Below, in pieces: positions 2,246 to 34,577 of a DNA stretch of 35,166 bases. The stretch is from NCBI GenBank assembly GCA_017514685.1, contig JAFWJN010000043.1:1-35166 (forward strand), given 5' to 3'. Under the pieces are notes generated by a model. That model did no database searches, was not told where the DNA came from, and saw only the letters and a list, made by a program, of their open reading frames with translations. This DNA comes from Clostridia bacterium (lineage in GTDB: Bacteria > Bacillota > Clostridia > Christensenellales > CAG-138). Numbering within the stretch: the first letter of the stretch is position 1; the number at the start of each line of letters is the position of its first letter. The position numbers and the translations under genes were made by a program.

Positions 2246-5170
2246 TCAATCATCCTTCATAAGGGATTCAACACTGATGGAATTTCCGGTATGGGGGTGT
2301 GTCTTGTGGAATTCTTTGGTCGCCTTGTTGTATTCTTTCCGTTTCTCGCGCATCATCTTCGCTTCTTCGGAACCGCTGTGCATCAGGATCTTGAACGCAC
2401 GCGGGATTGCGTAACCGGCAAGTCCGCCGACCTTGTCTTCCGCACGGCGCATATTTGTGTTCTGAGGATGATCACGCTTCAGATGAATCGCATCGAACTC
2501 GCAGCGGGTTGTGCAAAGACCGCAGCCGATACACTTGTTTTCATCCACAATCGTGGCTCCGCAGCCGAGGCAGCGGCTTGCTTCAATCTTGACCTGCTCT
2601 TCTGTCAGAGTCAGGCGCGGGTCGGAGAATCCGTTCTTGGCGTCGATGGAAGGATCGACGGCAGGAACCTGACGCTGCGCGACATCGTAGGAATCGATGG
2701 CAATGTTGTCTTTATCCAGTTCTTTGAAGAACCGGCGGTCTCTGCCGAGCGTCTGATTGACATGGTTCTTGGAAACGAAACGTGCAAGAGATTCTGCAGC
2801 TTCATGACCCTGACCGATGGCATCAATGACAAATTTCGGACCGGTGAAAACATCGCCGCCGACGAAGATGCAGGGATCATCGGTCTGGTAGGTGAACTTG
2901 TCGGCAACAGGATAATTGCCGTGCCAGAATTTCACATTCGTACCGCTTAAGAGATTGCCCCATTCGATGGCCTGACCGATTGCAAAGATGACCGTTTTGG
3001 CATCGACTGTCATGGTCTCTTCTTCATCGTATGCAGGGGAGAATTTTCCGGTTTCCGGATCGATCGTCCGGACACAGCGCTTGAGAACAATCCCCTTTAC
3101 TTTCCCTTCTTCATCTGTAAGAACTTCTTTTGGTCCCCAGCTCGGGAAAATCTGGACATTTTCTTCCTGGGCTTCCTTGATCTCTTCTTCGGAAGCGGGC
3201 ATGGTCTCGCGTGATTCGAGACAGAACATGGATACGGAATCCGCACCGAAGCGGTGAGCCGTCCGGGCACAGTCAATCGCTACATTGCCACCGCCGATGA
3301 CCACGACGTCTCCGGAGAGTTTGCGGCTGTTATCCGAGAGTGCTTTGGACAGGAAACTGACCGCAATTTCGGTTCCTTCGGCTGTTTCACCGGGAACGCC
3401 GGGGAGCCTTCCGCCCTGGCAGCCGATTGCAATGTAGAATGCTTCGTAACCTTGTTCTTTGAGCTCGGCGATCGTAATGTCTTTGCCGACTTCCACGCCG
3501 CATTTGATTTCAGCACCGAGTGCACGGATTACATCGATCTCTGCGTCAATGACATCCTTTTCCAGCTTGTAGGAAGGAATACCGTAGGTCATCATACCGC
3601 CGGGCTTTGCGTTTTTCTCAAAGACCGTGGGACGGTATCCTCTTGAAGCAAGATAATATGCACAGCTGAGACCGGCAGGGCCTGCGCCGATGATCGCGAT
3701 TTTCTGAGGCCATTCGCCTTCGACGCGGTTGATCAGTTTCTTGGGAACATAGCGCGTCTCTGCATGGAGATCACGTTCTGCCAGGAATTTTTTCACATCG
3801 TCGATTGCGACCGGCTGGTCGATCGTTCCGCGCGTGCAGGCATCTTCGCAGCGCTTGTTGCAAACACGTCCGCAGATGGCGGGGAAGGGGTTCTCGCGCT
3901 TAATCAATGCAAGAGCCTCATCATAACGGCCTTCTTTGGCCATCTTCAGATAACCCTGAACGGGAACGTGCGCAGGGCAGGCGGCCTTGCAGGGAGAAGA
4001 ACCGGTCTTATGCGTGTTGACGCGCGCGGTATCGCGGTAGTTCTCATCCCAGGCATATTTGCCCCAGCGGATTCGATCCGGAAGAACCGATTTCGGATAC
4101 TGGATTTCTTTGCCTTCCTTGGTGCAGAGCTTCTGACCGAGTTTCAGAGCTCCGGCAGGGCAGATTTCCACGCAGCGACCGCAGGCAACGCACTTTTCTT
4201 TTTCCACGTTTGCGGTATATGCGCTCTTGGACATGTTCGGGGTGTTATACAGAAGAGAGGTCCGAAGAGCGTTGCAGATCTGAACGTTGCAGTTGCAGAT
4301 ATCAAAGATATGATCTTCGCCGTCGATGTTGGTCAGCTGATGGACATAACCGTTTTCTTCTGCTTTCTTCAGAATGTCCAGGGCCTCTTCTTTTGTGATA
4401 TAGTGCGCGCGTCCGGTTTCGACGGTATAATCCGCCATATCGCCTACCTGAATGCACCAGTCGTTGACATCGTCTGTGCAGCCTTCACCCAGCATCGATC
4501 TGGAAGCGCGGCAGGAGCAGATACCTGCGGAAAGATGTCCGTCATACTTCTGCAGCCAGTAGGAGATTTTTTCCAGCTTGACAGCTTCCCTGTTGGCAGA
4601 TACTTCTTTTTCAACCGGAATGACATGCATGCCGATGCCATCGCCTCCCGGAGGCACCATGGAAGTGATATGCTCAAGGGGCAGGAAAGTCATCCGCTCA
4701 AACATCTTTGCAACGGGAGGATTTTTCGCAATCCGGTCCTCGGAGGAATTGAACAATTCCGCACTGCCGGGCACGAAGTAACTGGTACGATAACGCTTTT
4801 CTTTCGGAGCACCTGGAATCGGACCGTCGTCATTATAATGATCGCCGTAATCATACTCGACAAATCCATGGACACAAAGCAAATCCAGAGCCTCTTTGAA
4901 TTTTTCCTTGCCCATGTTCTTGTTCATCTCGAAGAGCTCTTCTTCGGTATACCATTTGCGCTGTTTCATGGTCAGCGCGATGTCAACTTCCGGTTCTGTC
5001 AGGACTTCACGAAGTCCCCAGTATTCTTCATCGGTTGTTTTCAGGCCCATCAGTTTGTGCCCGACATTGTCCGTAATACGACGTCCGAGCGTAGCATATT
5101 TTTTATTCAGCTCAGCTTCGCCATCGTATTTGGACTGGGTGATAGGATTGCTGTCGTAGGTTTCCGGCAT
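2246..5170 (-). CDS. Large FAD-dependent, multi-Fe-S oxidoreductase (GltD-like core)
   Basis: A 974-residue multidomain redox protein. Residues 1-320 form an unnamed cysteine-rich region (CSC at 218-220, Cys231, Cys239, CNC at 292-294, Cys299) that could bind an Fe-S cluster. A ferredoxin motif CxxCxxCxxxCP follows at 327-338. Residues 394-465 resemble the N-terminal Fe-S region of the glutamate synthase small subunit (CKAAC, CGRVCNKRC). The FAD site is GAGPAG at 495-500, and a second Rossmann motif (IGGGNVA) follows near 645, probably for NAD(P)H. The C-terminus carries CLGC and a second ferredoxin-like CIGCGLCxxxC motif. It sits between hypB and hypA, so it may move electrons between NAD(P)H and a ferredoxin-like partner. 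The physiological substrate is unknown. AAGGAG precedes the ATG. Confidence 0.82.
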   Translation of the reverse strand: MPETYDSNPITQSKYDGEAELNKKYATLGRRITDNVGHKLMGLKTTDEEYWGLREVLTEPEVDIALTMKQRKWYTEEELFEMNKNMGKEKFKEALDLLCVHGFVEYDYGDHYNDDGPIPGAPKEKRYRTSYFVPGSAELFNSSEDRIAKNPPVAKMFERMTFLPLEHITSMVPPGGDGIGMHVIPVEKEVSANREAVKLEKISYWLQKYDGHLSAGICSCRASRSMLGEGCTDDVNDWCIQVGDMADYTVETGRAHYITKEEALDILKKAEENGYVHQLTNIDGEDHIFDICNCNVQICNALRTSLLYNTPNMSKSAYTANVEKEKCVACGRCVEICPAGALKLGQKLCTKEGKEIQYPKSVLPDRIRWGKYAWDENYRDTARVNTHKTGSSPCKAACPAHVPVQGYLKMAKEGRYDEALALIKRENPFPAICGRVCNKRCEDACTRGTIDQPVAIDDVKKFLAERDLHAETRYVPKKLINRVEGEWPQKIAIIGAGPAGLSCAYYLASRGYRPTVFEKNAKPGGMMTYGIPSYKLEKDVIDAEIDVIRALGAEIKCGVEVGKDITIAELKEQGYEAFYIAIGCQGGRLPGVPGETAEGTEIAVSFLSKALSDNSRKLSGDVVVIGGGNVAIDCARTAHRFGADSVSMFCLESRETMPASEEEIKEAQEENVQIFPSWGPKEVLTDEEGKVKGIVLKRCVRTIDPETGKFSPAYDEEETMTVDAKTVIFAIGQAIEWGNLLSGTNVKFWHGNYPVADKFTYQTDDPCIFVGGDVFTGPKFVIDAIGQGHEAAESLARFVSKNHVNQTLGRDRRFFKELDKDNIAIDSYDVAQRQVPAVDPSIDAKNGFSDPRLTLTEEQVKIEASRCLGCGATIVDENKCIGCGLCTTRCEFDAIHLKRDHPQNTNMRRAEDKVGGLAGYAIPRAFKILMHSGSEEAKMMREKRKEYNKATKEFHKTHPHTGNSISVESLMKDD

Positions 5171-5210: not shown

Positions 5211-5870
5211 CTATTGCTTCCAGCTGTCGATCGCATCCGACAGCCAGGACTCCCATGCTTCCATTCCTTCCCCTGTTTTGGAAGAAACCAGGAATACCTT
5301 GATACGGGGATTCAGTTTTTTCGCCCGCTCAATGCATTTTTCCGCATCAAAATCAAAATAGGGTAGGACATCGATCTTTGTAATAAGAAGCGCATCAGAA
5401 GTAGTGAACATCAAAGGGTATTTGAGCGGCTTGTCGTCTCCTTCGGGAACCGACAGAAGCATAACGTTTTTTCCCGCACCGGTGTCAAATTCCGCGGGGC
5501 AGATCAGGTTCCCGACATTTTCCAAAACAACCAGATCGGACTCGGGTGCATTCAGTTCTTCCAGCGCTCTTCTGGTCATGCCGGCATCCATATGACACAT
5601 ACCGCCGGTATGCGCCTGGACAGCTTTGGCACCCATCATTTCGATTCTCTTCGCATCCACATCGGAATCCACGTCCGCTTCCATGACGGCAATGCGGTAC
5701 TTGGAGCCGAGATCCTGAATCGTGCGTTCCAGAAGAGTGGTTTTTCCGGCACCCGGGGAGGCCATCAGGTTCACTAAAAGAGTTTTTTGCTCTTTGAGTT
5801 CGGAACGGAGCACTTCTGCGTCCCGGTCATTGGAAGCGGTTATCGTTTCTTTGAGCTCAATGATTTTCAA
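5211..5870 (-). CDS. hypB: HypB, GTPase for nickel insertion
   Basis: A 219-residue SIMIBI GTPase. The P-loop ASPGAGKT is at 37-44, and the HypB metal site TGGMCHMDAG includes Cys92 and His93. NLICPAEFD and TKIDVLPY are the later G-domain motifs. It lacks the N-terminal metal-binding or histidine-rich extension seen in some HypB proteins. The only reasonable start is TTG at 5870-5868, with AAAGGA about 12 bases upstream and no in-frame ATG nearby. It is the first gene of the operon and is followed 40 bp later by the large oxidoreductase. It hydrolyses GTP while delivering Ni with HypA. Confidence 0.93.
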   Translation of the reverse strand: MKIIELKETITASNDRDAEVLRSELKEQKTLLVNLMASPGAGKTTLLERTIQDLGSKYRIAVMEADVDSDVDAKRIEMMGAKAVQAHTGGMCHMDAGMTRRALEELNAPESDLVVLENVGNLICPAEFDTGAGKNVMLLSVPEGDDKPLKYPLMFTTSDALLITKIDVLPYFDFDAEKCIERAKKLNPRIKVFLVSSKTGEGMEAWESWLSDAIDSWKQ

Positions 5871-5962: not shown

Positions 5963-6007
5963 GCAAAATAGAAAAAACTGCCACGCAGTTTTTCACTGTC
6001 ATGGCAG
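5963..6007 (-). terminator. Terminator of the bilin-reductase-like operon
   Basis: On the minus strand, CTGCCA pairs with TGGCAG and CAGT with ACTG around a gaaaa loop, followed directly by TTTTTTCTATTTTG. It lies nine bases past the stop codon of the 216-aa gene, a textbook intrinsic terminator. Confidence 0.8.
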
Positions 6008-6015
6008 AATCCGGA

Positions 6016-6666
6016 TCAGTGTGATTGGATTGTTCCGAATAATGCGGAACGGAAAACCCATTCCGTTTTTTCCTGTCCGAGCGCTTTTAAGAACACATCC
6101 GTTGAAGGACCGCCGTTTTTCAGAAGTCCTTCTACATAGACGGAAGCTTTTTCCCGCTTGGCAGCGGCATCGCAAGCATGATCAGGCTCGATTTCCAGCA
6201 GCGCTGCGAGATGTTTCTCAGCGAATTCGCTGAATCTGCCGGACAGATTCTTTTTCGCTTTTTTGGAAACACTGATCGGCAGCTTGATGGAGTCATACCA
6301 ATGTGCTCCGAGAACATGGTCAGGGAGATCGGAATAAGACTGTTTGACTTTTTCCACACCCGAAAAATCAGAAGGAGCAATCAAAGTATCATAGATCTCA
6401 ACAATCAGAGTGTCGTTGCCCATCGCAAAGATACGGTCGTAGGAATAAAGAGGAAGATCTTTTGCAGTCGGATTGATGATCAGGGAATCCATTTTCATCA
6501 GACCGAGAAAACCGACTGCGTGCATGACGGAAACATGACCGAGGCCTTCTGCTTCATATGCCCGGATCGTAAAACGCATGCCGCTGGCCTTCACTTCCCG
6601 GTAGGGATCGACAGACTGTTCTTTGAGCGGATACTTTTTACGGAGAAGATTGAGCAGTTGTTCCAT
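6016..6666 (-). CDS. Bilin-reductase-like (FDBR-like) hypothetical protein
   Basis: A 216-residue soluble protein with no signal peptide. It resembles ferredoxin-dependent bilin reductases (PcyA/PebA/HY2 family) in three places: a central beta-rich segment with NPTAKDLPLYSYD at 65-77 (compare the P-x-x-DLPFFGAD strand of PcyA), a following strand NDTLIVEIYD at 84-93 (compare GHLIALDMQPL), and a C-terminal F-L-K-A-L-G-x(5)-W-V-x(4)-LF helix at 192-210 that matches the family's closing helix. The length is slightly below the usual 230-250. FDBRs use ferredoxin electrons to reduce linear tetrapyrroles without a bound cofactor. The start shares one base with the stop codon of the upstream membrane protein gene, so translation is coupled. 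The family call is pattern recognition, not a search result. Confidence 0.45.
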   Translation of the reverse strand: MEQLLNLLRKKYPLKEQSVDPYREVKASGMRFTIRAYEAEGLGHVSVMHAVGFLGLMKMDSLIINPTAKDLPLYSYDRIFAMGNDTLIVEIYDTLIAPSDFSGVEKVKQSYSDLPDHVLGAHWYDSIKLPISVSKKAKKNLSGRFSEFAEKHLAALLEIEPDHACDAAAKREKASVYVEGLLKNGGPSTDVFLKALGQEKTEWVFRSALFGTIQSH

Positions 6667-7310
6667 TATGCACTCCTTTTTTCCAGCTTCAGTTCTTTCA
6701 GACCTGCTTTGTGAATGATACAGACAGCAGTAAGGAGGGCAATCTGGCCAAGAATATTAACGCCTTCCGCGATCCAGTTCATGGAAGCCTGCTCAAAGTT
6801 CCGGGAAGACAGATAACCCATCATCATGCTGAAGACGAAGCTGACACAGAACAGTACGACGGCAACCGGCTTCTTCAGTTTTTTTGCGACAGCGGCGAGG
6901 CCGAAATTCATGAATCCGAATCCGAGAACCATCAGCGTGACAAAAATGAAAGTTCCGGAGAACGCAGCCGGTGCTGCCGCGACGGCGGGAACCGTTTCGG
7001 TTTGCTTGTGGACCAGCATGGCAATCACGCCGATGCCCGCGAGCAGGAATCCGATTGACTGGACCGGAAAGAACATGTTGTTCAAAGGCGCGAAGTCGCA
7101 GATGTTCATCGCGTAGAGCAGCTTATAAAGCGCTTTTAATAATCCGGCGGTAAACACGTTGATCGTTCCGGCTGCAAACAGGGCGAAAGCTCCCTTGCTC
7201 ATTTTGTTATAGAGTCCGCGCTGCAGAAGAACAGCGGAAATCCCGAACAGAAAAACAGGGATAAAATCAACCAGCGCCATCGGGACGGAGAATTGCTTTA
7301 CAGCTTCCAT
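6666..7310 (-). CDS. Six-TM membrane protein of unknown function
   Basis: A 214-residue integral membrane protein with about six hydrophobic segments, near residues 14-33, 40-65, 78-100, 116-138, 146-167 and 180-203. It has a short charged C-terminus (KELKLEKRSA). No transport or catalytic motif is recognised. GGGAG inside the end of the preceding gene serves as ribosome site, the gap to that gene is five bases, and the stop overlaps the next start by one base. The gene is therefore firmly part of the TetR / flavin-reductase / bilin-reductase-like operon. It might be a substrate transporter or a membrane anchor for electron transfer; both are guesses. Confidence 0.6.
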   Translation of the reverse strand: MEAVKQFSVPMALVDFIPVFLFGISAVLLQRGLYNKMSKGAFALFAAGTINVFTAGLLKALYKLLYAMNICDFAPLNNMFFPVQSIGFLLAGIGVIAMLVHKQTETVPAVAAAPAAFSGTFIFVTLMVLGFGFMNFGLAAVAKKLKKPVAVVLFCVSFVFSMMMGYLSSRNFEQASMNWIAEGVNILGQIALLTAVCIIHKAGLKELKLEKRSA

Positions 7311-7315
7311 CGTGA

Positions 7316-8254
7316 TCAGACTCCCTTCTTGGAATTCTTTTCTTTGGAACGTTTGTCGTTAATGATTTTCATGTGCTCTTCTGTGATGAGAGTAACACCG
7401 TTTTCCTTCGCCCAGTCGACACACCCCTTTAAAACAAGGGGCAGGAAGACGCGGGGAACATTGAGGATCGTTTTAAGAGCTTCATCCGTGAACTTTACGG
7501 TATCATCCGCCCGGTCAGCGGCATAGCGGACAGATTCCAGGGTCTGTTTGCGGATAGCCAGCAGTTCGGAACGCATGCGCTTTGCTCTGTGGAACCAGAA
7601 GTTTTTGCTGTCGCGGTAACCGTAGTCGACCGGAAGCTTGGGGAAATCCTGCGCACGGACACCGTTGATGATCGCGTCGGAATACTTTTTCTTCATCAGG
7701 ATTTTGTCAACTCTCAAAATGAAATGCGCACCGAATTTGGAAGTGATGCCGTTGAAATCATGATACGGGGGTTCATAACCGGTCGTACAGCCTGCCTGAT
7801 CGGAGGCAGCACCGTCGAGTTCACGCATCCACGTGCATTCAATTACCTCAATCGCGTCGGAAAGGACCATAGGACGGACATCGGAAGGATCCTGTTCTTC
7901 TATCATGGACTTTTCAAGACGGAAATTGACCTTCGGCATTTTTTCTTCCGGTTTGTCTCCCGGCCAGGAAAGCTTGACTGCTTCCTTGAATGTTTTCGGA
8001 TTGTCATCCACGAAATTGATGGCACATTTCCCGGTTCTCAGAATATTCTGCGCGGTGTTGGATGAATTGCGGCACTGAAGCAGCATCGCATAGTAGTCCT
8101 TACCGGCAACATAATAAGGCTGAACCAGAGAATACGGCCCGAGTGTTGTCATCCCGCTTTCCGTAAGTGTGCTGATCAGAACGGTCGGCATCGGGAAGAA
8201 CAGGGAAGTCTGGTAGAAGTTGTCAACGATCCGCAGGTTTTCAAAACTGCTCAT
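7316..8254 (-). CDS. Flavin-reductase-like split-barrel protein with PCP_red-like C-terminus
   Basis: A 312-residue protein. Residues 1-200 look like the FMN-binding split barrel of the flavin-reductase-like (DIM6/NTAB) family: PMPTVLISTL near the start, then GPYSLVQPYY, and CRNSSNTAQNILRTGKCAINFV, the usual N/T-rich FMN-phosphate region followed by a strand. The last 60 residues (from about 250) follow the pattern F-T-x-EAL-x-x-(I/L)-x-x-VP-x(8)-(V/L)-x-x-(C/E)-x-x-WA-x-x-x-GV-x-x-IT of the protochlorophyllide-reductase-associated (PCP_red) domain. The ATG at 8254 is chosen because GGAGG lies eight bases before it; an ATG five codons upstream overlaps that ribosome site. Its position suggests it serves the same pathway as the bilin-reductase-like gene. 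Confidence 0.6.
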   Translation of the reverse strand: MSSFENLRIVDNFYQTSLFFPMPTVLISTLTESGMTTLGPYSLVQPYYVAGKDYYAMLLQCRNSSNTAQNILRTGKCAINFVDDNPKTFKEAVKLSWPGDKPEEKMPKVNFRLEKSMIEEQDPSDVRPMVLSDAIEVIECTWMRELDGAASDQAGCTTGYEPPYHDFNGITSKFGAHFILRVDKILMKKKYSDAIINGVRAQDFPKLPVDYGYRDSKNFWFHRAKRMRSELLAIRKQTLESVRYAADRADDTVKFTDEALKTILNVPRVFLPLVLKGCVDWAKENGVTLITEEHMKIINDKRSKEKNSKKGV

Positions 8255-8294
8255 GAAATAATCCTCCATTTCATCAATCTATCTGAATCCGCGC

Positions 8295-8816
8295 TTAAAG
8301 GAGCGGGTCGAGAACGGAAAAGAGTTCCTCTTCGGAGACACCGGCAAGACACCAGGTCATAAGGGACTCAGTCAGAAAAACAGCCAGAAAGGATGCGTTT
8401 GCTTTTCCGGAATCAGATAAAATCTTTTCCAGTGGTTCTGACAGCTGACGGCGGAGCATCGGATGACGGTCACGCGCGACAGAGGAGAAGATACGGATTG
8501 CATCCGGATCGGAAAACAGTTTCTGATGAGAATGCACAAACGATGAAAGACCTTTATATTCGGAATGGAGAAGACTTCTCGCGTCTCCCGACTCGGGAGC
8601 AATCAGCATTTCACTGAGAGCAATATTCCAGTCCTCCATCATAAAAGCGGCAATCAGGTGTTCTTTGGAAGGAAAATAATTATAAACGGTACCAACGCCA
8701 ACGCCGCAGGCGGAAGCAATTCCCCTGACCGTGATTTGTCCGTATCCGAGCTGATTGACCTGAAGACGGGCTTCCGCCATTAATTTTTCACGCAGATTTT
8801 CAATGATTTTTGGCAT
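8295..8816 (-). CDS. TetR-family regulator of the bilin-reductase-like operon
   Basis: A 173-residue regulator. The N-terminal helix-turn-helix is clear: QITVRGIASACGVGVGTVYN followed by YFPSKEHL, the hallmark TetR recognition helix. The C-terminal half is a helical ligand-binding domain whose ligand cannot be read. GGAGG precedes the ATG. It is the first gene of the operon, with about 40 bp to the flavin-reductase-like gene. A perfect palindrome sits in its own leader just downstream of the -10 box, so it most likely represses its own operon until an inducer binds. Confidence 0.88.
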   Translation of the reverse strand: MPKIIENLREKLMAEARLQVNQLGYGQITVRGIASACGVGVGTVYNYFPSKEHLIAAFMMEDWNIALSEMLIAPESGDARSLLHSEYKGLSSFVHSHQKLFSDPDAIRIFSSVARDRHPMLRRQLSEPLEKILSDSGKANASFLAVFLTESLMTWCLAGVSEEELFSVLDPLL

Positions 8817-8878: not shown

Positions 8879-8896
8879 ATATGAACGTGTTCATAT
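8879..8896. promoter_or_regulatory. Probable TetR operator (perfect palindrome)
   Basis: ATATGAAC and GTTCATAT form a perfect 8-bp inverted repeat with a 2-bp centre. It begins three bases downstream of the -10 box of the TetR operon, where a bound repressor would block transcription. Confidence 0.7.
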
Positions 8897-8898
8897 GA

Positions 8899-8926
8899 AT
8901 TATATCATGGCAGTATTGTTTGTCAA
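8899..8926 (-). promoter_or_regulatory. Consensus promoter of the TetR / bilin-reductase-like operon
   Basis: Minus-strand TTGACA (8926-8921) and TATAAT (8904-8899), both perfect consensus, with a 16-bp spacer. Such a strong promoter next to a palindromic operator suits a tightly repressed, inducible operon. Confidence 0.8.
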
Positions 8927-9035: not shown

Positions 9036-10082
9036 TTACTCCTTCTGGGAAGGTTTAGACGGAAGAGAAGATTCGCGCGGAATCAGGGCAATCTCGTCCC
9101 GGATGCGGACGGTCATACCGTTTTCCTGCATGCGGTAAGCCTGCTCGATGCACTTGGAGACCGCTATCTCATTGCTGGAACCGTGACCCTTAACAACGAT
9201 TTTCGAACATCCTAACAGAACGCTTCCGCCGTAGTTACGGTAATCCATGAACTGCTTTTCTTCCAGGAACATCCGTTTTAACAGCAGCGCTCCGAGTTTG
9301 TAGAGGGGTTTTGAAAGGAGATCTTTTTTCAGCTTTTTCAGCAATTCAAGGGAAGTCCCTTCCGCTGATTTGATTAACACATTACCGGAAAAACCGTCAG
9401 TGACGATCAGATCATAGTTTCCGGAAAGAAGATCTCGGCTTTCCATGTTTCCGGAGAAGCAGATGTTCGGAAGAGCGGCAAGCGCAGGATAGGCGGCTTT
9501 GCGAAGTTCATCGCCTTTCTCTGCTTCCGTACCGATGTTCAGCAGTGCAACGCGAGGCTTTTCAATTCCGTATGCACACTGAAGATAGATGCTCCCCATG
9601 ATGGCGAACTGCTCCAGCATCTGCACGGAAACATCCACGTTAGCGCCGCTGTCGCAAACTCCGACAATTCCTCCGTTCATAGTGGGGAGCAAAGGACAGA
9701 ATGCGGGGCGCTTGATGCCGTGAATTCTCCCGATGCGAAGGGTCGCCGCAGCGACCAGGGCGCCGGTTGAACCGACCGAGACCAGTCCATGAACCGATTC
9801 GTCAGTTCGGACCAGTTCCACGGCTTTCATGAGGGAACTGTCTTTTTTCGCTTTGATCGCCTGCGTCGGAACCTCATCGCATCCGATGATTTCAGGCGCA
9901 TGCACTACGGACAGCCTGGAGGAATCGTATTCTTTTCCGATGAGTGCATTCCGGATCAACGATTCGTCACCGGTCAGGGTCAGTTCCAGATCGGGAAATT
10001 GTTTCAGAGCCAGCAAGGCTCCGTTCACGTTTGCATCCGGACTGTGATCACCGCCGAAGCAGTCTACTGCAAGTCGTATCAT
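9036..10082 (-). CDS. plsX: PlsX, acyl-ACP:phosphate acyltransferase
   Basis: A 348-residue enzyme with the PlsX opening AVDCFGGDHSPD (usually AVDAMGGD) and the conserved GSTGAL and DSGANVD motifs, plus SGNVLIKSAEG. It interconverts acyl-ACP and acyl-phosphate at the membrane surface; acyl-phosphate feeds PlsY in phospholipid synthesis. It starts with a four-base ATGA overlap with the GNAT gene, with GGAGG as ribosome site, and is the last gene of the operon tetR-fakA-fakB-GNAT-plsX. The usual fabD/acpP companions are absent. Grouping PlsX with FakA/FakB puts both routes to acyl-phosphate under one promoter. Confidence 0.93.
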   Translation of the reverse strand: MIRLAVDCFGGDHSPDANVNGALLALKQFPDLELTLTGDESLIRNALIGKEYDSSRLSVVHAPEIIGCDEVPTQAIKAKKDSSLMKAVELVRTDESVHGLVSVGSTGALVAAATLRIGRIHGIKRPAFCPLLPTMNGGIVGVCDSGANVDVSVQMLEQFAIMGSIYLQCAYGIEKPRVALLNIGTEAEKGDELRKAAYPALAALPNICFSGNMESRDLLSGNYDLIVTDGFSGNVLIKSAEGTSLELLKKLKKDLLSKPLYKLGALLLKRMFLEEKQFMDYRNYGGSVLLGCSKIVVKGHGSSNEIAVSKCIEQAYRMQENGMTVRIRDEIALIPRESSLPSKPSQKE

Positions 10083-11209
10083 TTGTTGTCCTCCAGCTTT
10101 TTGACATAGGAGCGGCGGCGTTTATGAGGAACTGCCACGAACCGTTTCCATTGGTTCTGAATCGCATAATTGTCTTCCAGATTCAGATTGGTTTCAGCAT
10201 ATTCAATGCCGTCCTCCCGGAGCATTTTTTCCAGAGCAGCGGAAATCGCGACGCTGATCCCCCGGTTGGCCCAGGCAGGATCGATGCCGATCAGTCCGAG
10301 ATCGATGATCTTCGGGTGCCGGATTGCTTTTAGAATACGGATGATCGCGGCAGGAGTGAGATGCCCTCTGGAGGGCTGGACCGCTCTGGCAATGGACGGG
10401 AAGCAGATTCCGAGACAAACGATATTGTCGTTCTCATCCAGAAGCACTGCGACATGCTCAAGATCGATGATCAGACGGAAATTATCGATCATCAGCTTTT
10501 TCATGCCGTCCGTGAACGGAACGGTGCCGTACAGAAGATCGTAGGATTTGTCTAGAAGTTCAAACAGCTCGTCGGCATATTTGTTCAGAAAGTCATTGAC
10601 GTTTTTAGCCGGACCGAAATGAAGCTTATAGCGGGCCATAAGCTTTTCCGTTACGCGGGCAAGAGCTCCGTCGTTTTTTTCGGGCGGATAGATTTTGCTT
10701 TCTGTCCAGTCGACTTCCTTGACATAACCCCTGTTTTCAATCAGGGTCTGATAATAATCCGCGTTATATTGCTCCTCAAACGTAGAAAGCTGGTCAAACC
10801 CCTCTACCAGCAGGCCTTCTCGTTCCAGATCGGAAAATCCGAGCGGACCGACAACCGTATCCATGCCTTTTTTCCGGGCCCAGCACTCTACCGCTTCAAA
10901 CAGCGCATCCGCGACTTCCTGATCGTTGATCGCGTCAAACCTGGTAAAGCGAACCCGCTTTTCGCCGTTTTTAGCGTTTGCCGCTTTCTGAAGGATTCCG
11001 GAAATGCGGCCGACGATACGGCCGTCCCGGTACGCGTTGTAATAGACTGCTTCGCAGGTGTCATTGTAGACATAATCCTTGCGGAAAATCTTCTTTTCAT
11101 CTCCGTAAAGAGGGGGAACGAAGCAGGGATTGCCGCTGTACAGATCAAGAGGAAAATTTAAAAACCTCCGCTGTTCTTTTTTTGTAGTTGCTTCGCGAAT
11201 TTCGATCAT
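10079..11209 (-). CDS. GNAT-like acyltransferase in the fatty-acid operon
   Basis: A 376-residue protein of a GNAT-like family seen in many bacteria, with the opening EIREATTKKEQRRFLNFPLDLY, then NPCFVPPLYGDE, a central GPLGFSDLEREGLLVEG, and a second acetyltransferase-like half containing GLIGIDPAWANRGI before the AETNLNLEDNYAIQNQW end. It lies between fakB (six-base gap) and plsX (four-base overlap), so it is probably translated with them. The context suggests an acyl-group donor, possibly acyl-ACP or acyl-CoA, but the acceptor is unknown. A role in N-acylation of an amine or in lipid modification is speculative. Confidence 0.7.
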   Translation of the reverse strand: MIEIREATTKKEQRRFLNFPLDLYSGNPCFVPPLYGDEKKIFRKDYVYNDTCEAVYYNAYRDGRIVGRISGILQKAANAKNGEKRVRFTRFDAINDQEVADALFEAVECWARKKGMDTVVGPLGFSDLEREGLLVEGFDQLSTFEEQYNADYYQTLIENRGYVKEVDWTESKIYPPEKNDGALARVTEKLMARYKLHFGPAKNVNDFLNKYADELFELLDKSYDLLYGTVPFTDGMKKLMIDNFRLIIDLEHVAVLLDENDNIVCLGICFPSIARAVQPSRGHLTPAAIIRILKAIRHPKIIDLGLIGIDPAWANRGISVAISAALEKMLREDGIEYAETNLNLEDNYAIQNQWKRFVAVPHKRRRSYVKKLEDNK

Positions 11210-11215
11210 ATCCGG

Positions 11216-12085
11216 TTACCTGTGGATCGCATGGAAGCAGATTCCGACGCCGTTGGGACCGCAGTGGCCTCCGGTTGTCGGATTGACAACGACCGCCTCA
11301 ACATTCAGATCATCGCCGTATTTCTCCTTCAGACGGGAAACGATGGCTTCCGCAATTTCCGGAGCGTCCGTATTTCCCACGATCACGCGGTGATCACGGA
11401 TATTGTCACCCAGCTCTTCCACATATCGGAGAAGGCGGGCAATTGCACGTTCTCTGCCGCGTTCGCTGCCGATCGAGACCATTTTTCCTTCGGAATTCAT
11501 ATAGATGATCGGACGGACGCCGAGCAGGGTGCCCATCGTGGCGGTCAGGCCGGAAACACGTCCGCTGTGTTTGAAAAATTTCAGATCGTCTGCAAAGAAA
11601 TAGATCGCAAATCTGTCGACTTCGGTCTCCGCCCATTTCAGAATCTCTTCCACCGGCTTGCCGTTCAGAACCATATCCCCGACTTCCAGGGCAATGTTCA
11701 GACTGATGATCGTAATGCCTTTGGTATCGATCTCGTAGAATTTGCGTTCCGGAAACCGGCTCTTCAGTTCGCTGACAGCCTGATCCATGGCATCAAAGGT
11801 GGCGGTCATTGCACGGGAAAAATGCACGTACAGAATATCATCCCCGGCAGCGAAGACCGGTTCGAAGATCTCGAGGTATTTTTCACGGCTGATCGCGCTG
11901 GTGTTGGGAATCGTTCCCTTGCGGAGAAGATCATAGAAGGCATGGGAATCGAACGACTCGAAATCCTCATAGGGGTATACTGTTTTTCCATCGATGGAGT
12001 AGGGCATGCTGATCAGAGAGTAGCCGTATTTGGCGGCGATCTCCGGCGTGACGTCGCAGTCGGTATCGGTAAACAGTTTCAACAT
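11216..12085 (-). CDS. FakB-type DegV family fatty-acid-binding protein
   Basis: A 289-residue DegV-fold protein. It has the family opening FTDTDCDVTPE, a TSAIS motif, the ILYVHFSRAMTAT segment that usually reads SSGLSGT, and a C-terminal HCGPNGVGICF that lines the lipid pocket. FakB presents a bound exogenous fatty acid to the kinase FakA. The gene follows fakA after 14 bp, which strongly supports a FakA/FakB pair. Fatty-acid preference cannot be read from the sequence. Confidence 0.88.
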   Translation of the reverse strand: MLKLFTDTDCDVTPEIAAKYGYSLISMPYSIDGKTVYPYEDFESFDSHAFYDLLRKGTIPNTSAISREKYLEIFEPVFAAGDDILYVHFSRAMTATFDAMDQAVSELKSRFPERKFYEIDTKGITIISLNIALEVGDMVLNGKPVEEILKWAETEVDRFAIYFFADDLKFFKHSGRVSGLTATMGTLLGVRPIIYMNSEGKMVSIGSERGRERAIARLLRYVEELGDNIRDHRVIVGNTDAPEIAEAIVSRLKEKYGDDLNVEAVVVNPTTGGHCGPNGVGICFHAIHR

Positions 12086-12099
12086 AGTTAGCCTCTTTC

Positions 12100-13758
12100 T
12101 TACTCTAAAATAAGAATATAGTCATATATCGGCTGACCGCCGTCCAGAAGAATGACCTCGGTCAGAGGATAAGCGTGTTCAAGCGCTTCTTTCAGCTTTT
12201 CCGATTGATCAGGATCAGCTTCCGAACCGCAGACCAGAAGAAGCACGCCATAGTCTTCCGCATGAAGAGCGGAAGACAGAGCGATTGCAGCCTCTGTTGC
12301 GGTTGCAGCATCGGAATAGATCGTTCCATCGGAGAAACCGATATAGTCGCCTTTTTTGACAGAAACGCCGTCGCGTTCCGTGGTGCGGTTGGCTTTCGAG
12401 ACGGTACCGGTCCGGACGCTCTGCATGTTTGAGATGCACTGATCTCGAATGATGTCAGGATCATCTGAGGAAAGATCTAAAAGGGAAAGGGCAGCATAGC
12501 ACTCGCCGATCGTATGACTCGGTAAAACTATGATCCTGGCACCCGGATATAAACCGGCAGCCTGTTCAGCAGTAAGAATAATATTGCTGTTATTGGGATA
12601 CACGAAAATGACATCTGCATCCACGGAAGAAAAAGCGTCGAGAAAGCTTTCTGCAGAGGGGTTCATGCTCTGGCCGCCGTCGACAACCGCATCGGCACCG
12701 ATCGACAGGAACGTATCGCGGATCCCGTTTCCGGCGGCAACCGCGACGATCCCGTATTTCTTATGAGGACGCTTCTTATTGGTATAGTTGTTGCGAATGG
12801 TAGCCTGATGATTCTGAAGCATCATGTTTTCAATCTTCAGAGTCAGGAATTCACCGTATTCATGGCAATGAGCAAGGATCTGCTCCGGGAACATGGTATG
12901 GACATGAACCTTCAGAATGCTTCCTTCACGGAAGGCAACGACCGATTCTCCGTTGGCAATCAGCCAGTCAATCAGAGGGTTTTCATCAAACTCCGATACA
13001 TTTCCGACTTTGATTGTCTGCAGACGGAGCAGGAATTCCGTGCAGTAACCGAATTTCAGAACGGAATCTTTTGTGAATCCTTCGGTGTTGACCGCTTTGA
13101 CACGCTGGGATGAAACAGCAGGGGCAGATTGGGAGATGGAGATTCCGTCCAGAGCGTCACGCATACCTTCCGCGATATAGACGAATCCTGCGCCACCGGA
13201 ATCAACGACGCCGGCTTCTTTGAGAACGTTCAGGAGCGTTGGAGTGCGGTCAAGAGATTCCCGGAGTTCTTTGATCAGATCATCGAAATATTGTTCGAAA
13301 GAAGAATGATCGGAGATACGGGAATTTGCATATCTGACAGCATCTGAATAGACTGTGAGGATTGTACCTTCTACAGGCGTCTGGACCGCATGATAGGATT
13401 CTTCAACGCCGACTTCCATAGCGGAAGCAAACTTCCGGACGTCAGCGGTTGCTGCTCCTTCCAGACCTTTTGAAATCCCAAAGAAGATTCTGGAAAGAAT
13501 GACGCCGGAATTACCGCGCGCTCCGAGCAGCATTCCCTGTGAAATCCGCTTTGAGGTAAGACCGAGATCGTCGGTGGACTCACCTAAAAGGGAAGAAAAA
13601 CCTGCGTCAATGGTCATGAACATATTGTCACCGGTATCACCGTCCGGTATGGGAAAGACGTTTAGCTCGTTGACGACGACCCGGCTGAGATTCAGCTTGG
13701 CTGCTCCGCTTTCGATCATCTTTGCGTACAGCGTGCCGGTTAAAGAAAATGTTTCCAT
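12100..13758 (-). CDS. fakA: FakA, fatty acid kinase (DhaL/DAK2 + DegV-like)
   Basis: A 552-residue kinase. The N-terminal DhaL domain shows NVFPIPDGDTGDNM with the Mg-binding aspartates and GARGNSGVILSRI. A middle linker domain follows, and the C-terminal part has the GDYIGFSDGTIY region. FakA phosphorylates fatty acids held by FakB to give acyl-phosphate. The length matches the family. An in-frame TAG three codons upstream fixes the ATG as the first possible start; the nearest good Shine-Dalgarno (AGGAAGGG) is rather far, about 15 bases. The gene begins 38 bp after the TetR gene, in the same operon. Confidence 0.92.
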   Translation of the reverse strand: METFSLTGTLYAKMIESGAAKLNLSRVVVNELNVFPIPDGDTGDNMFMTIDAGFSSLLGESTDDLGLTSKRISQGMLLGARGNSGVILSRIFFGISKGLEGAATADVRKFASAMEVGVEESYHAVQTPVEGTILTVYSDAVRYANSRISDHSSFEQYFDDLIKELRESLDRTPTLLNVLKEAGVVDSGGAGFVYIAEGMRDALDGISISQSAPAVSSQRVKAVNTEGFTKDSVLKFGYCTEFLLRLQTIKVGNVSEFDENPLIDWLIANGESVVAFREGSILKVHVHTMFPEQILAHCHEYGEFLTLKIENMMLQNHQATIRNNYTNKKRPHKKYGIVAVAAGNGIRDTFLSIGADAVVDGGQSMNPSAESFLDAFSSVDADVIFVYPNNSNIILTAEQAAGLYPGARIIVLPSHTIGECYAALSLLDLSSDDPDIIRDQCISNMQSVRTGTVSKANRTTERDGVSVKKGDYIGFSDGTIYSDAATATEAAIALSSALHAEDYGVLLLVCGSEADPDQSEKLKEALEHAYPLTEVILLDGGQPIYDYILILE

Positions 13759-13796
13759 AAGAATCTAACTTGACCCTTCCTAAACTCTGTTGGTAG

Positions 13797-14378
13797 TTAT
13801 GCCAAAAAGGATGCGCTTCCGGAGGAAAGAATCGGAAGAAACAGTTTTGCTACTTCTTCCAGCGATAACTGCATACCACCCTGAATCCATTCCTGATATA
13901 CCGATATCATGCCGTTCATCAGAAAATCGGCATAGATACGGGAATATTTCTGCATTCCGGGAGAGATGGTCTTCATCAGGAAAGCCTGATAACGTGAGGA
14001 CAGAGAATCGCGGAGCTTCTGAAAAACAGAAGTTCCGTTATTCATTCGAAAAAGCGGAATCGTCAGATCACGATAAGCAGTAAATGCGCCGTGTACGGAT
14101 TCCAGAAATGTTTTCGGATCCTGCAAAAATCCGGAAAAGCCGGTTTGCTCCAGTGAGGAACTGATTTTCAGAACCAATTCGTTTTCCAGTTCATTACGGA
14201 TCGCGTCAATTCCTTCATAATAATTGTAGATTGTCTTGCGGTCCACATCTGCATGATCTGCGATATCAGTCACGGTGATTTCCGAAGAATCCATTTGACC
14301 GAGGAGAAGCAGATAGGCGTTGCGGATTGCCGATTTGGAGCGCAGAATACGACGATCGCTCTTTCTTTCCTTTTCCAT
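13797..14378 (-). CDS. TetR-family regulator of the fak-plsX operon
   Basis: A 193-residue regulator with the HTH EITVTDIADHADVDRKTIYN followed by YYEGIDAI. A GTG 15 codons upstream is in frame but would fall at the expected transcription start, so the ATG at 14378, eight bases after AAAGGG, is chosen. The C-terminal domain is unassigned. It is the first gene of the operon and is likely self-regulating through palindromes in its leader. By analogy with FapR, FabT and other lipid regulators, the ligand may be an acyl derivative, but that is inference. Confidence 0.85.
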   Translation of the reverse strand: MEKERKSDRRILRSKSAIRNAYLLLLGQMDSSEITVTDIADHADVDRKTIYNYYEGIDAIRNELENELVLKISSSLEQTGFSGFLQDPKTFLESVHGAFTAYRDLTIPLFRMNNGTSVFQKLRDSLSSRYQAFLMKTISPGMQKYSRIYADFLMNGMISVYQEWIQGGMQLSLEEVAKLFLPILSSGSASFLA

Positions 14379-32043: not shown

Positions 32044-33135
32044 ATGGCAGTCTACAAAGAACCGAACGCAAACACATGGCGCGTTGTATATCGGTATAAT
32101 GATGTACAGGGCAATCCAAAGCAAACGACCAAGCGCGGCTTTGCAACAAAGCGGGAAGCCGTCGCATGGGAGAGAGAACAGATGAACAAACGCGAGGCGA
32201 AGATGGATATGACCTTCGAGAGCTTCGTGGAGATCTACACAGCGGATATGAAGAATCGAATCAAGGAACATACGTGGTGTACGAAAACCAATATCCTTGA
32301 AAAACGGATTCTCCCGTTCTTCGGAAAACGGAAAATGTGCGATATTCAGGCGAAGGATGTCATTGCATGGCAGAATGAGATGATCAAGCACAGGGACGAA
32401 AACGGAAAACCGTATGCGCCGACGTATTTGAAAACACTGCATAATCAGCTCAGCGCGGTTTTCAATCATGCGGAGAAGTATTACGGGCTAAGGGAGAATC
32501 CAGCGCGAAAAGCCGGAAACATGGGGAAGGACCGAACGCGGGAGATGCTGTTCTGGACGCAGGATGAATACAAGCGATTCGCCGAAGCGATCATGGACAA
32601 GCCGCTTTCGTATTACGCCTTTGAAATGCTGTATTGGTGCGGTATCCGTGAGGGCGAATTGCTGGCGCTGACACCGGAGGACATTGATTTCGAGCAGGGG
32701 ACGGTACGGATCAACAAATCGTATCAGCGCCTGAACCGGCGGGATGTCATTACCGAGCCGAAAACACCGAAAAGCAATCGAACGATTCAGATGCCGGATT
32801 TTCTGGTGGAGGAGATGCAGGATTATATTCAGCGACTTTATAAGATCGATCCGAAAAGCCGTTTGTTTGACATCACCAAATCCTATCTGTATAGGGAAAT
32901 GAAACGCGGCGCAACGGCGGCAGGAGTGAAGAAGATCCGCGTTCACGATCTCCGGCACAGCCACATATCGCTGCTGATTCAGCTCGGCTATTCTGCGGTG
33001 GCAATCGCGGATCGTGTCGGGCATGAGAGCATCGACATCACTTACCGTTACGCGCACTTGTTTCCGTCCACACAGAAGGACATGGCAAAATCACTCGCAA
33101 ATCTACGCAAGGAGGAACAAAAGAATGTCAGCTAA
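32044..33135 (+). CDS. int: Tyrosine integrase
   Basis: A 363-residue phage/Tn916-type site-specific recombinase. An N-terminal AP2-like arm-binding region (WRVVYRYNDVQGNPKQTTKRGF) is followed by a core-binding helical domain (about 58-160) and the catalytic domain. The catalytic residues are Arg202 in GIREGELL, His301 and Arg304 in VHDLRHSH, His327 in VGHESI and Tyr336 in YRYAH. All are present, so the enzyme should be active. AAGGAGGG precedes the ATG. The next gene overlaps its end by 11 bp. Confidence 0.95.
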   Translation: MAVYKEPNANTWRVVYRYNDVQGNPKQTTKRGFATKREAVAWEREQMNKREAKMDMTFESFVEIYTADMKNRIKEHTWCTKTNILEKRILPFFGKRKMCDIQAKDVIAWQNEMIKHRDENGKPYAPTYLKTLHNQLSAVFNHAEKYYGLRENPARKAGNMGKDRTREMLFWTQDEYKRFAEAIMDKPLSYYAFEMLYWCGIREGELLALTPEDIDFEQGTVRINKSYQRLNRRDVITEPKTPKSNRTIQMPDFLVEEMQDYIQRLYKIDPKSRLFDITKSYLYREMKRGATAAGVKKIRVHDLRHSHISLLIQLGYSAVAIADRVGHESIDITYRYAHLFPSTQKDMAKSLANLRKEEQKNVS

Positions 33136-33463
33136 AAACAGAGACGAGCATAATCGCTGGCGCAACATTACGGTCGGCTTTCGGGTATCCCCGGAAGAGA
33201 ATGAACAGTTGAATATCGCAGTCGCGCTGTCCGGGCTGCCGAAACAGGAATATTGCTATCGGCGCTGCATGAATCGGGACATCGTTGTGCAGGGCAATCC
33301 CCGCGTTTACAAAGCGTTGAAGGATCAGCTTGCAAACGTGCTCTCAGAATTGCAGCGTATCGCGTCGGCAGGCGAAATACGGGACGAACTGTTCGAGAAC
33401 ATTGTTTTGATTACAAAAACATTGAACGAAATGAAGGAGGAACCAGATGAACCCCAAAAATGA
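33125..33463 (+). CDS. MobC-like mobilization accessory protein
   Basis: A 112-residue protein. It opens with a basic stretch and RWRNITVGFRVSPEENEQLN, the ribbon-helix-helix type start of MobC-family relaxosome proteins. It then has ALSGLPKQEYCYRRC and VVQGNPRVYKALKDQL, sequences typical of MobC-like proteins in clostridial elements. Such proteins bind oriT and assist the relaxase. The ATG at 33125 lies inside the integrase end with AAGGAGG upstream; upstream in-frame sequence belongs to the integrase in another frame. It overlaps the RepA-like gene by 17 bp. Confidence 0.75.
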   Translation: MSAKNRDEHNRWRNITVGFRVSPEENEQLNIAVALSGLPKQEYCYRRCMNRDIVVQGNPRVYKALKDQLANVLSELQRIASAGEIRDELFENIVLITKTLNEMKEEPDEPQK

Positions 33464-34577
33464 AATGGCTGCCGTTGCATCGCCTGTTGGCGCAGACGAT
33501 CGGCAGTCACCCAATTACTTTAATAATAGTATAACCGATTTCGACGAAGAAATCAAGACTATTGAAGAAGAAAGTGCGGAATTTCTCCGCAAAATGGAGC
33601 CATCGTACATGGAAACGATTTCCATGACCAAGCTGTTCGACAGTGTGTATCAGAGTAAACCGCCGATCATCGACGGCCTTCTCTATCGCGGCGCGTATCT
33701 GTTTGTCGGCGCGCCGAAGCTCGGCAAGAGCTTCCTCATGGCACAGCTTGCGTATCATGTCAGTACTGGGACTCCCCTTTGGGGCTTTCCGGTGCGGCAG
33801 GGAACAGTCCTGTATCTTGCGCTCGAAGACGATTACAGACGGCTGCAGGAACGCTTGTATCGGATGTTCGGAGCGGCAGAGAATGACAATCTGCATTTCG
33901 CTGTTTCGGCAAGTCAGATCGGGAAGGGGCTGGACGATCAGCTCGGTCGTTTCATCCGGGAGCATCCCGATACGTCGCTTGTGATCATCGACACGCTGCA
34001 GAAGATCCGGGAGGTCGGCGGTGAAGCGTACAGCTATGCAAGTGACTATCAGATCATCACCCGCATGAAGCAAATCGCCGATTCCTATGGAATCTGTCTG
34101 ATGCTTGTGCATCATACGCGCAAGCAAAAAGCCGACGATTGCTTCGACATGATTTCCGGTACGAACGGCTTGCTCGGCGCGGCGGACGGCGCGTTCCTGC
34201 TGCAGAAGGAACAACGGACGTCAAACACCGGTTGGCTGGAGATCTCCGGCAGGGATCAGCAGGATCTGCGCTTGATTCTGAAAAAGGATGAGGAGACGCT
34301 CTGCTGGGAACTGGAACGTGCGGAAACGGAACTGTGGAAAGCGCCGCCGGAGCCGTTGCTGGAAATGATCGCGGAGAAAATCACGGCGGACTGCCCTGAG
34401 TGGACGGGCAGCCCGACCGAGCTTTGCGAGTTCCTTGCAGTCGATTGGAAACCGAACGTGCTGACGCAGCGGCTGAACGTCAACGCTTCGCGGCTGATGC
34501 AGGAATACGGAATCCGATACTGCTACAAGCGAAGTCACGCAGGGCGCAGAATCTGGCTGCGCTATGAACAGGCGTGA
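33447..34577 (+). CDS. RepA-like AAA ATPase / hexameric helicase
   Basis: A 376-residue RecA-fold ATPase of the RepA/AAA-25 type. Walker A GAPKLGKS is at 88-95, Walker B LVIIDTL ends with Asp182 plus the following residues, and LMLVHHTRK is the conserved sensor histidine segment. The C-terminal 70 residues look like a winged helix (TELCEFLAVDWKPNVLTQRLN). Such proteins accompany integrases and relaxases in Bacillota elements and may help replicate the excised circle or unwind DNA at oriT. GGAGG lies just upstream of the ATG. An iteron-like repeat block begins at its stop codon. Confidence 0.8.
   Translation: MNPKNEMAAVASPVGADDRQSPNYFNNSITDFDEEIKTIEEESAEFLRKMEPSYMETISMTKLFDSVYQSKPPIIDGLLYRGAYLFVGAPKLGKSFLMAQLAYHVSTGTPLWGFPVRQGTVLYLALEDDYRRLQERLYRMFGAAENDNLHFAVSASQIGKGLDDQLGRFIREHPDTSLVIIDTLQKIREVGGEAYSYASDYQIITRMKQIADSYGICLMLVHHTRKQKADDCFDMISGTNGLLGAADGAFLLQKEQRTSNTGWLEISGRDQQDLRLILKKDEETLCWELERAETELWKAPPEPLLEMIAEKITADCPEWTGSPTELCEFLAVDWKPNVLTQRLNVNASRLMQEYGIRYCYKRSHAGRRIWLRYEQA

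Follow-up and report, generated by a model that had tools for sequence, protein, structure and literature searches.

A gut Clostridia operon encoding a bilin reductase-fold protein as a candidate for pigment reduction

Ferredoxin-dependent bilin reductases (FDBRs; PebA, PebB, PcyA, PebS, and HY2; Pfam family Fe_bilin_red, PF05996) and the red chlorophyll catabolite reductase (RCCR) of plants are the described enzymes closest in fold to a protein encoded in the DNA analyzed here. This DNA, referred to below as the window, is a stretch of 35,166 nt from a Clostridia bacterium (assembly GCA_017514685.1, contig JAFWJN010000043.1). Its positions 6,016-8,816 hold four minus-strand genes forming one unit in the order TetR-family regulator, flavin-reductase-like protein (P2), membrane protein (MP), and P4, which on its predicted structure is an FDBR-superfamily protein. 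As judged from sequence comparison, this operon is a shortened copy of a six-gene set that occurs mainly in the gut bacteria of herbivores and whose probable role is the reduction of a chlorophyll-type or bile-type pigment. No description of such an operon was found in literature whose coverage was without most subscription journals.

Classical FDBRs use biliverdin. P4 resembles them in the fold over its whole length and in the position of PebS Asp105, and it differs from them in its low identity to FDBR structures (11-15%), in the lack of Asp206, in its occurrence in gut bacteria, and in its operon partners. Relatives were taken from one scan of GTDB genomes, which yielded 108 relatives of P4, and the best 80 loci were analyzed. 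Among 17 neighbor families shared by at least five of these loci (only partly annotated, one being an ABC ATPase), neither heme oxygenase nor biliprotein genes, nor iron-sulfur (Fe-S), V4R, or globin genes of the pre-PcyA type, were recognized by eye.

Articles are cited here by PMC number for the excerpts available of each. In PMC10151467, PcyA is a biliverdin-using FDBR, and plant RCCR acts after an oxygen-dependent step; by Z score, RCCR is farther from P4 than the FDBRs are. The pre-PcyA clusters of the same excerpts are like the present operon in that FDBR relatives of non-photosynthetic heterotrophs occur in fixed gene clusters, whereas genes for heme oxygenase, Fe-S, V4R, and globin proteins belong to the pre-1 and pre-3 clusters and the operon members here are of other families. 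BilR and BilV are Old Yellow Enzymes according to the excerpts of PMC13252198, which no tested operon member is, and would share with the operon the reduction of tetrapyrroles by gut bacteria that is proposed here. The NCBIfam model of BilR (NF045599) did not match any operon protein, and none of 13 genomes scored above its cut-off of 750 bits (best score 429.9, in the genome of the window), the model being of the strict "exception" type. The operon had been predicted to be distinct from the BilR/BilS pair; this stands for BilR, which the comparison covered. P2 shares the split barrel of its N-terminal part with flavin reductases and flavoredoxin and its C-terminal PCP_red-like domain with PCP_red proteins (the tail of BchB of dark-operative protochlorophyllide oxidoreductase, DPOR). 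Unlike DPOR, the four window genes include no nitrogenase-like BchL, BchN, or BchB; only the small tail domain is common to both. A likeness to steroid 5-alpha reductases is seen above the Pfam cut-off for DUF1295 of the relatives, a gene that the window operon lacks.

The four genes and the folds of their products

The features of the operon are as follows.

8295-8816, minus strand: TetR-family regulator, 173 aa (TetR_N, E 1.9e-11)
7316-8254, minus strand: P2, flavin-reductase-like split barrel plus C-terminal PCP_red-like domain (first ATG of the open reading frame at 8269)
6666-7310, minus strand: MP, membrane protein without assigned function, 214 aa, six hydrophobic stretches (Kyte-Doolittle)
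6016-6666, minus strand: P4, predicted FDBR-superfamily protein, 216 aa, D77 aligned to PebS Asp105
8899-8926, minus strand: sigma-70-type promoter, TTGACA-16-TATAAT, 12 of 12 consensus matches
8879-8896, no strand assigned: candidate TetR operator, 18-bp inverted repeat ATATGAAC-AC-GTTCATAT (palindrome ATATGAACACGTTCATAT) upstream of TetR
5972-5994, minus strand: terminator-like stem-loop after P4, 10 pairs and a T-run

P4 was compared with known structures by Foldseek, which returned 44 PDB chains at E <= 1e-3, every one an FDBR, an RCCR, or one of two FDBR-fold chloroplast motor subunits. The Z scores (VIA) were 19.9 for PebB, 19.8 for PcyA, 17.6 for RCCR, and 14.7 for HemF, and the FDBR fold spanned the whole of P4. 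The structure search was thus favorable to the earlier suggestion of a bilin-reductase-like protein. Fe_bilin_red was matched by 39 of the 80 rows of the P4 alignment A4 (the window and 79 loci; L061 was left out), the runner-up family by 3, and one relative, L136, lay above the cut-off (31.3 versus 31 bits). D77 of P4 aligned to D105 of PebS in HMMER alignments to 2x9j and 2x9o, themselves with E values of 0.12-0.13; we take this position of PebS to be catalytic. D77 was kept in 80 of 80 and in 26 of 26 P4 rows, and E90, W123, and Y124 were likewise invariant in the 80. Searches of the PDB with phmmer, using single P4 and single P2 sequences, were unproductive, and the profile of alignment A2 gave no matches there. 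In one locus (L007:390-1574, the same place as L025), a single open frame fuses a P4-type protein to a pyridoxamine-oxidase-type (PNPOx) domain.

The fold of P2 matched the flavin reductase split barrel (PF01613). All 47 rows of the P2 alignment A5 (the window and 46 of 51 relatives; incomplete reads or sequences of <=290 aa were left out) matched this family at E <= 1, the best at 4.4e-8; the window protein scored 20.5 bits, under the cut-off of 27, and the relative L024 scored 32.2, over it. The tail of P2 is, on profile comparison, a remote PCP_red domain: residues 258-301 aligned to PF08369 by hhalign with a probability of 95.6 and an E value of 1.2e-8 (0 of 200 shuffles), at a score of 41.4 versus 17.1 for the reversed control, the comparison set comprising 14 of 15 domains found by motif in 20 loci. 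PF08369 was found by direct Pfam search in 2 of 10 P2 tails and in 0 of 47 full-length P2 sequences, the search of the window's own genome gave no match at P2, and a profile of the tail found no PCP_red structure in the PDB. The PCP_red-like C terminus proposed earlier was therefore supported by sequence profile and not by fold search. We know of no described protein that joins a flavin reductase barrel to PCP_red, a combination at which no search was aimed. The likely start of P2 is 8254 rather than 8269, because four relatives all begin with MSSF (residue 6 of the window frame) and GGAGG is located 8 bases 5' of that ATG. MSSF was the N terminus in 23 of 46 P2 rows of relatives, and the remainder had up to 12 residues more, some of these longer N termini following the BLAST start instead of a start codon.

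A six-gene set with a shared operator

The complete order TetR-P2-SDR-DUF1295-MP-P4, in which SDR denotes a short-chain dehydrogenase/reductase, was observed in 44 of the 80 loci. The remaining loci carried P2 to P4 (7), SDR to P4 (8), DUF1295-MP-P4 (5), MP-P4 (2), or P4 alone (14), and many of the 80 end early at contig ends. Where at least 4.4 kb precede P4 (53 loci), P2, SDR, DUF1295, and MP were present in 41, and SDR to P4 in 2, both from Pseudobutyrivibrio. Gaps within 100 bp predominated throughout: MP-P4 in 65 of 66 cases, DUF1295-MP in 62 of 64, SDR-DUF1295 in 57 of 59, TetR-P2 in 43 of 44, and P2-SDR in 43 of 51. The conservation of gene order in relatives is as the original prediction required. 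A TetR homologue preceded P2 in 44 of the 80 loci. MP homologues were found in 66; MP itself matched no Pfam family at E <= 1. SDR of the relatives is NmrA-like (NAD_binding_10 57.1 bits, NmrA 45.9), and DUF1295 (PF06966) scored 93.7 bits against a cut-off of 20.4 and, for Steroid_dh (PF02544), 33.1 against 22.6.

The window operon lacks SDR and DUF1295, the two reductase genes located between P2 and MP in most complete relatives. A second cluster, PNPOx-P4 paralogue-SDR-DUF1295, was found on another contig of the same genome, with genes for an ABC transporter and for glycoside hydrolases of families 88 and 28 as neighbors. The single SDR match and the single good DUF1295 match of this genome, which is 82.6% complete, are both in that cluster; a weak DUF1295 match with internal stops lies elsewhere. 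The shortened operon is not visibly decaying as far as its sequence tells: the proportion of nonsynonymous differences (pN) was below that of synonymous differences (pS) whenever window genes were compared with those of L101, L051, L052, L054, and L060 (16 of 16 comparisons). Values of pN were 0.34-0.41 for TetR, 0.06-0.13 for P2, 0.15-0.28 for MP, and 0.23-0.32 for P4, and pS was 0.69-0.83; because synonymous divergence (dS) is saturated, only the direction of the difference is informative.

The six-gene order recurred in a genome of another family of the order, where P4 was 39% identical, and a variant TetR-P2-PNPOx(-SDR-DUF1295) was present in three genomes, one of them cut by a contig end. 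SDR-DUF1295-MP-P4 is carried by Pseudobutyrivibrio ruminis CF1b and Pseudobutyrivibrio sp. YE44. In L102 (Pseudobutyrivibrio), two opposite-strand genes of the 2-hydroxyglutaryl-CoA dehydratase D family lie beside SDR-DUF1295-MP-P4, and L095 looks similar by eye. P4 occurred in a scattered fashion, in 13 of 121 genomes and in 12 of 391, counting the window's own, which fits an accessory trait. P2 alone was more widespread (57 of 297 genomes of the order), several of 20 examined places being without a partner gene, and a search of plasmids with P2 gave no match.

As evident from the feature list, the tight or overlapping arrangement of four leftward genes (25 bp between TetR and P2, 5 bp between P2 and MP, and a 1-bp overlap of MP and P4), the consensus promoter, the palindromic operator, and the membrane protein of the original prediction were all borne out. 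The "closed inducible unit" proved to be one operon and not the complete set. The terminator-like element is a stem of 10 pairs with a T-run and is not significant by itself, 6 terminator-like sites being found against 3.8 in shuffles. An exact copy of the operator core TGAACNNGTTCA preceded TetR in 30 of 44 regions examined (the window and 43 loci), as compared with a mean of 0.015 in mononucleotide-shuffled sets; three half-site control patterns had no exact occurrence and, with at most one mismatch, 2, 1, and 0. All 14 regions without the exact core have an alpha/beta hydrolase gene directly before TetR. The exact operator was near the likely hydrolase start in 12 of these; L085 has one mismatch, and the contig of L109 begins inside the hydrolase gene. 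Including L060, an exact site outside the 44-region count, the tally over 45 operons was 43 exact, 1 near, and 1 cut off by the contig start (L109). The 80 loci (998,296 bases) contained 48 exact sites, 42 preceding such operons and 6 elsewhere. Of 11 whole genomes, 6 contained ATGAACNNGTTCAT, each at one place, and 1 contained the reversed control pattern; in the genome of the window, ATGAACNNGTTCAT occurs at this operon only.

An Abhydrolase_5 hydrolase was linked in 33 loci, before TetR, divergently, after P4, or between DUF1295 and MP, and its N terminus was hydrophobic in three of three examined. Four loci without a hydrolase match (L056, L062, L080, and L087) carry a uroporphyrinogen decarboxylase (URO-D)-type methyltransferase, a corrinoid protein, and a pterin-binding methyltransferase; L056 and L080 are on short contigs or start close to P4. 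The exact operator lies just before the URO-D gene in three of them, and L080 ends inside that gene. Because the four loci are close relatives, they represent one or few events. A second MP-like gene is present in L056, L062, and L087. Hydrolase and demethylase may be alternative ways of removing an ester methyl, e.g. of the chlorophyll carbomethoxy group.

Around the window operon, a gene on the same strand at 9036-10082, which we take to be of plsX type, lies 5', and HypB (5211-5870, TTG start) adjoins downstream. Beside HypB and outside the operon, positions 2246-5170 (minus strand) encode a 974-aa NAD(P)-binding oxidoreductase whose best family, PRK12771, was below cut-off. At 32044-34577 (plus strand), what by eye is an integrase-like gene (363 aa) precedes a small gene and then a gene for a RepA-like ATPase, possibly the end of a mobile element.

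Candidate substrates and the proposed route

Hosts were counted by hand from the record titles of the 80 loci. RGIG metagenome-assembled genomes (MAGs) of ruminants, namely roe deer, water deer, goat, sheep, yak, or water buffalo, made up 39 titles. A further 8 were RUG titles and 1 was a rumen co-assembly; 2 read "Lapin", 13 SIG titles gave no host, 4 bore the name Butyrivibrio or Pseudobutyrivibrio, and 13 were others, including one "pullistercoris". None of the 80 was labeled human. RUG is, in the excerpt available, the code of a rumen genome set. Presumably this also applies to its 11000-14000 series. Complete operons were present in a goat omasum MAG (L055) and in RUG MAGs L101, L117, L118, and L124, and the P2-to-P4 set in a goat rumen MAG (L103). 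The carriers therefore live mainly where chlorophyll products and bile pigments both arrive and partly where bile does not.

We consider it quite possible, if somewhat short of an even chance, that the operon is substrate-inducible and serves to reduce a hydrophobic tetrapyrrole, with a chlorophyll breakdown product of the pheophorbide/phytoporphyrin type in herbivore guts as the most likely substrate. Chlorophyll products are preferred because the source hosts are herbivores, some carriers come from the forestomach, and a hydrolase or demethylase is linked. The pigment would enter without a dedicated transporter; the uptake suggested in the original prediction was not supported, and the six-gene set includes no transporter. 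TetR would sit on TGAACNNGTTCA and let go upon ligand binding, P2 would supply or use reduced flavin, and its PCP_red domain might hold the pigment. P4, with its bilin-reductase/RCCR-like fold, would reduce the pigment, Asp77 acting as putative proton donor. In full operons, the NmrA-like NAD(P)H reductase and the DUF1295 membrane reductase could perform further steps, and the hydrolase with hydrophobic N terminus, or the corrinoid demethylase set in four loci, could remove an ester or methyl group.

Several results weigh against this proposal. The window P4 scored 12.1 bits (E 0.15) to Fe_bilin_red, below the gathering cut-off of 31; L135 had no score and L140 25.5 of 31, and a PF05996 profile search of 61 genomes gave none over cut-off. 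P4 family profiles did not find PDB sequences significantly (FDBRs, E 0.12-2.2), the 80-row profile found no FDBR at E <= 1, and an unrelated chain ranked top in all three of these searches. In 10 of the 53 loci with a long upstream flank (at least 4.4 kb), P4 stood alone. The structure model of P2 was poor, with a mean predicted local distance difference test (pLDDT) score of 62.9. PCP_red domains turned up in 48 of the 398 genomes covered for the phylum, and 35 of the 53 matches listed lay in frames of <=210 aa; a domain so widespread is no proof of tetrapyrrole chemistry. The glycine of P4 at the position of PebS D206, the existence of non-enzymatic proteins with the FDBR fold (8xqw), and the hindgut origin of most site-named MAGs, all taken up below, also count against the proposal. 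The host counts come without a background tally and are thus not a measure of host enrichment.

In the closest alternative, which we regard as doubtful, the same enzymes would act on biliverdin, bilirubin, or urobilinogen in the large gut, e.g. in the unassigned step from urobilinogen to stercobilinogen. The nearest fold of P4, that of FDBRs, is in favor of it, as are the gut sites, 37 of 39 site-named MAGs coming from cecum, colon, or rectum, i.e. from the hindgut, where bile pigments also arrive (the other two are from omasum and rumen). According to excerpts of PMC13252198, the amounts of both pigments that herbivores excrete vary, and BilV is judged not to be the urobilinogen reductase. 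The forestomach loci named above, however, lie upstream of bile entry, no genome of the 13 exceeded the BilR cut-off, and it is not obvious what a linked hydrolase or demethylase would do to free bilins.

Reduction of plant sterols or steroids, with DUF1295 as steroid 5-alpha reductase, SDR as 3-beta-hydroxysteroid dehydrogenase, and P4 as a binding protein, appears unlikely. Phytosterols are likewise part of the herbivore diet, and DUF1295 (93.7 bits), Steroid_dh (33.1), and 3Beta_HSD for SDR (33.9) were all above cut-off, which is a further point against tetrapyrroles.

Decidedly unlikely, in our estimate, is a P4 that binds or scavenges tetrapyrroles without catalysis, so that the operon would detoxify or sequester pigments with no reduction through P4. 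The fold can be non-enzymatic, as in subunits of chloroplast motor complexes (8xqw, 8xks), PebS D206 aligned to G186 of P4, glycine in 80 of 80 rows (nearby gaps make this placement less certain), and 14 of 80 P4 genes had no partners, some on short contigs. On the other hand, D77, E90, W123, and Y124 are invariant, and the distant P4 of L135 sits between an NmrA reductase and a flavodoxin/ferredoxin gene. P4 relatives also lie beside two FAD proteins in L136-L139 and L141 (genomes G254, G358, G480, G318, and G144); those of L136 matched the geranylgeranyl-reductase superfamily best, under cut-off, and the other four loci are similar by eye. ChlP of chlorophyll synthesis is a member of the geranylgeranyl-reductase family. 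ChuY is NmrA-like, and anaerobic heme or anaerobilin breakdown with SDR in its role is very improbable: no radical-SAM heme-opening gene was recognized by eye among the 17 shared and only partly annotated families, although excerpts of PMC10151467 name ChuY as the reductase of that pathway.

The original observation was thus confirmed and its interpretation partly supported, with the substrate leaning to chlorophyll products and unproven. In PMC3907879 and PMC13030745, as far as their excerpts extend, phytoporphyrin is formed from chlorophyll in grazing animals and photosensitises livestock, one review names gut bacteria as the agent, and no gene is named for its formation. It is tentatively suggested, as a somewhat doubtful extension, that the operon encodes the conversion of chlorophyll products by herbivore-gut bacteria, through reductions and ester removal, to phytoporphyrin (phylloerythrin) or colorless products. 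It would then be an anaerobic counterpart of the plant RCCR pathway, built on a new branch of the bilin-reductase superfamily. For such a conversion, the operon provides specific genes as candidates, a regulator whose candidate operator is defined, and named strains. With it, proteins predicted to have the bilin-reductase fold are placed in gut Clostridia, whereas the excerpts of PMC10151467 link the enzymes known to have this fold to oxygen.

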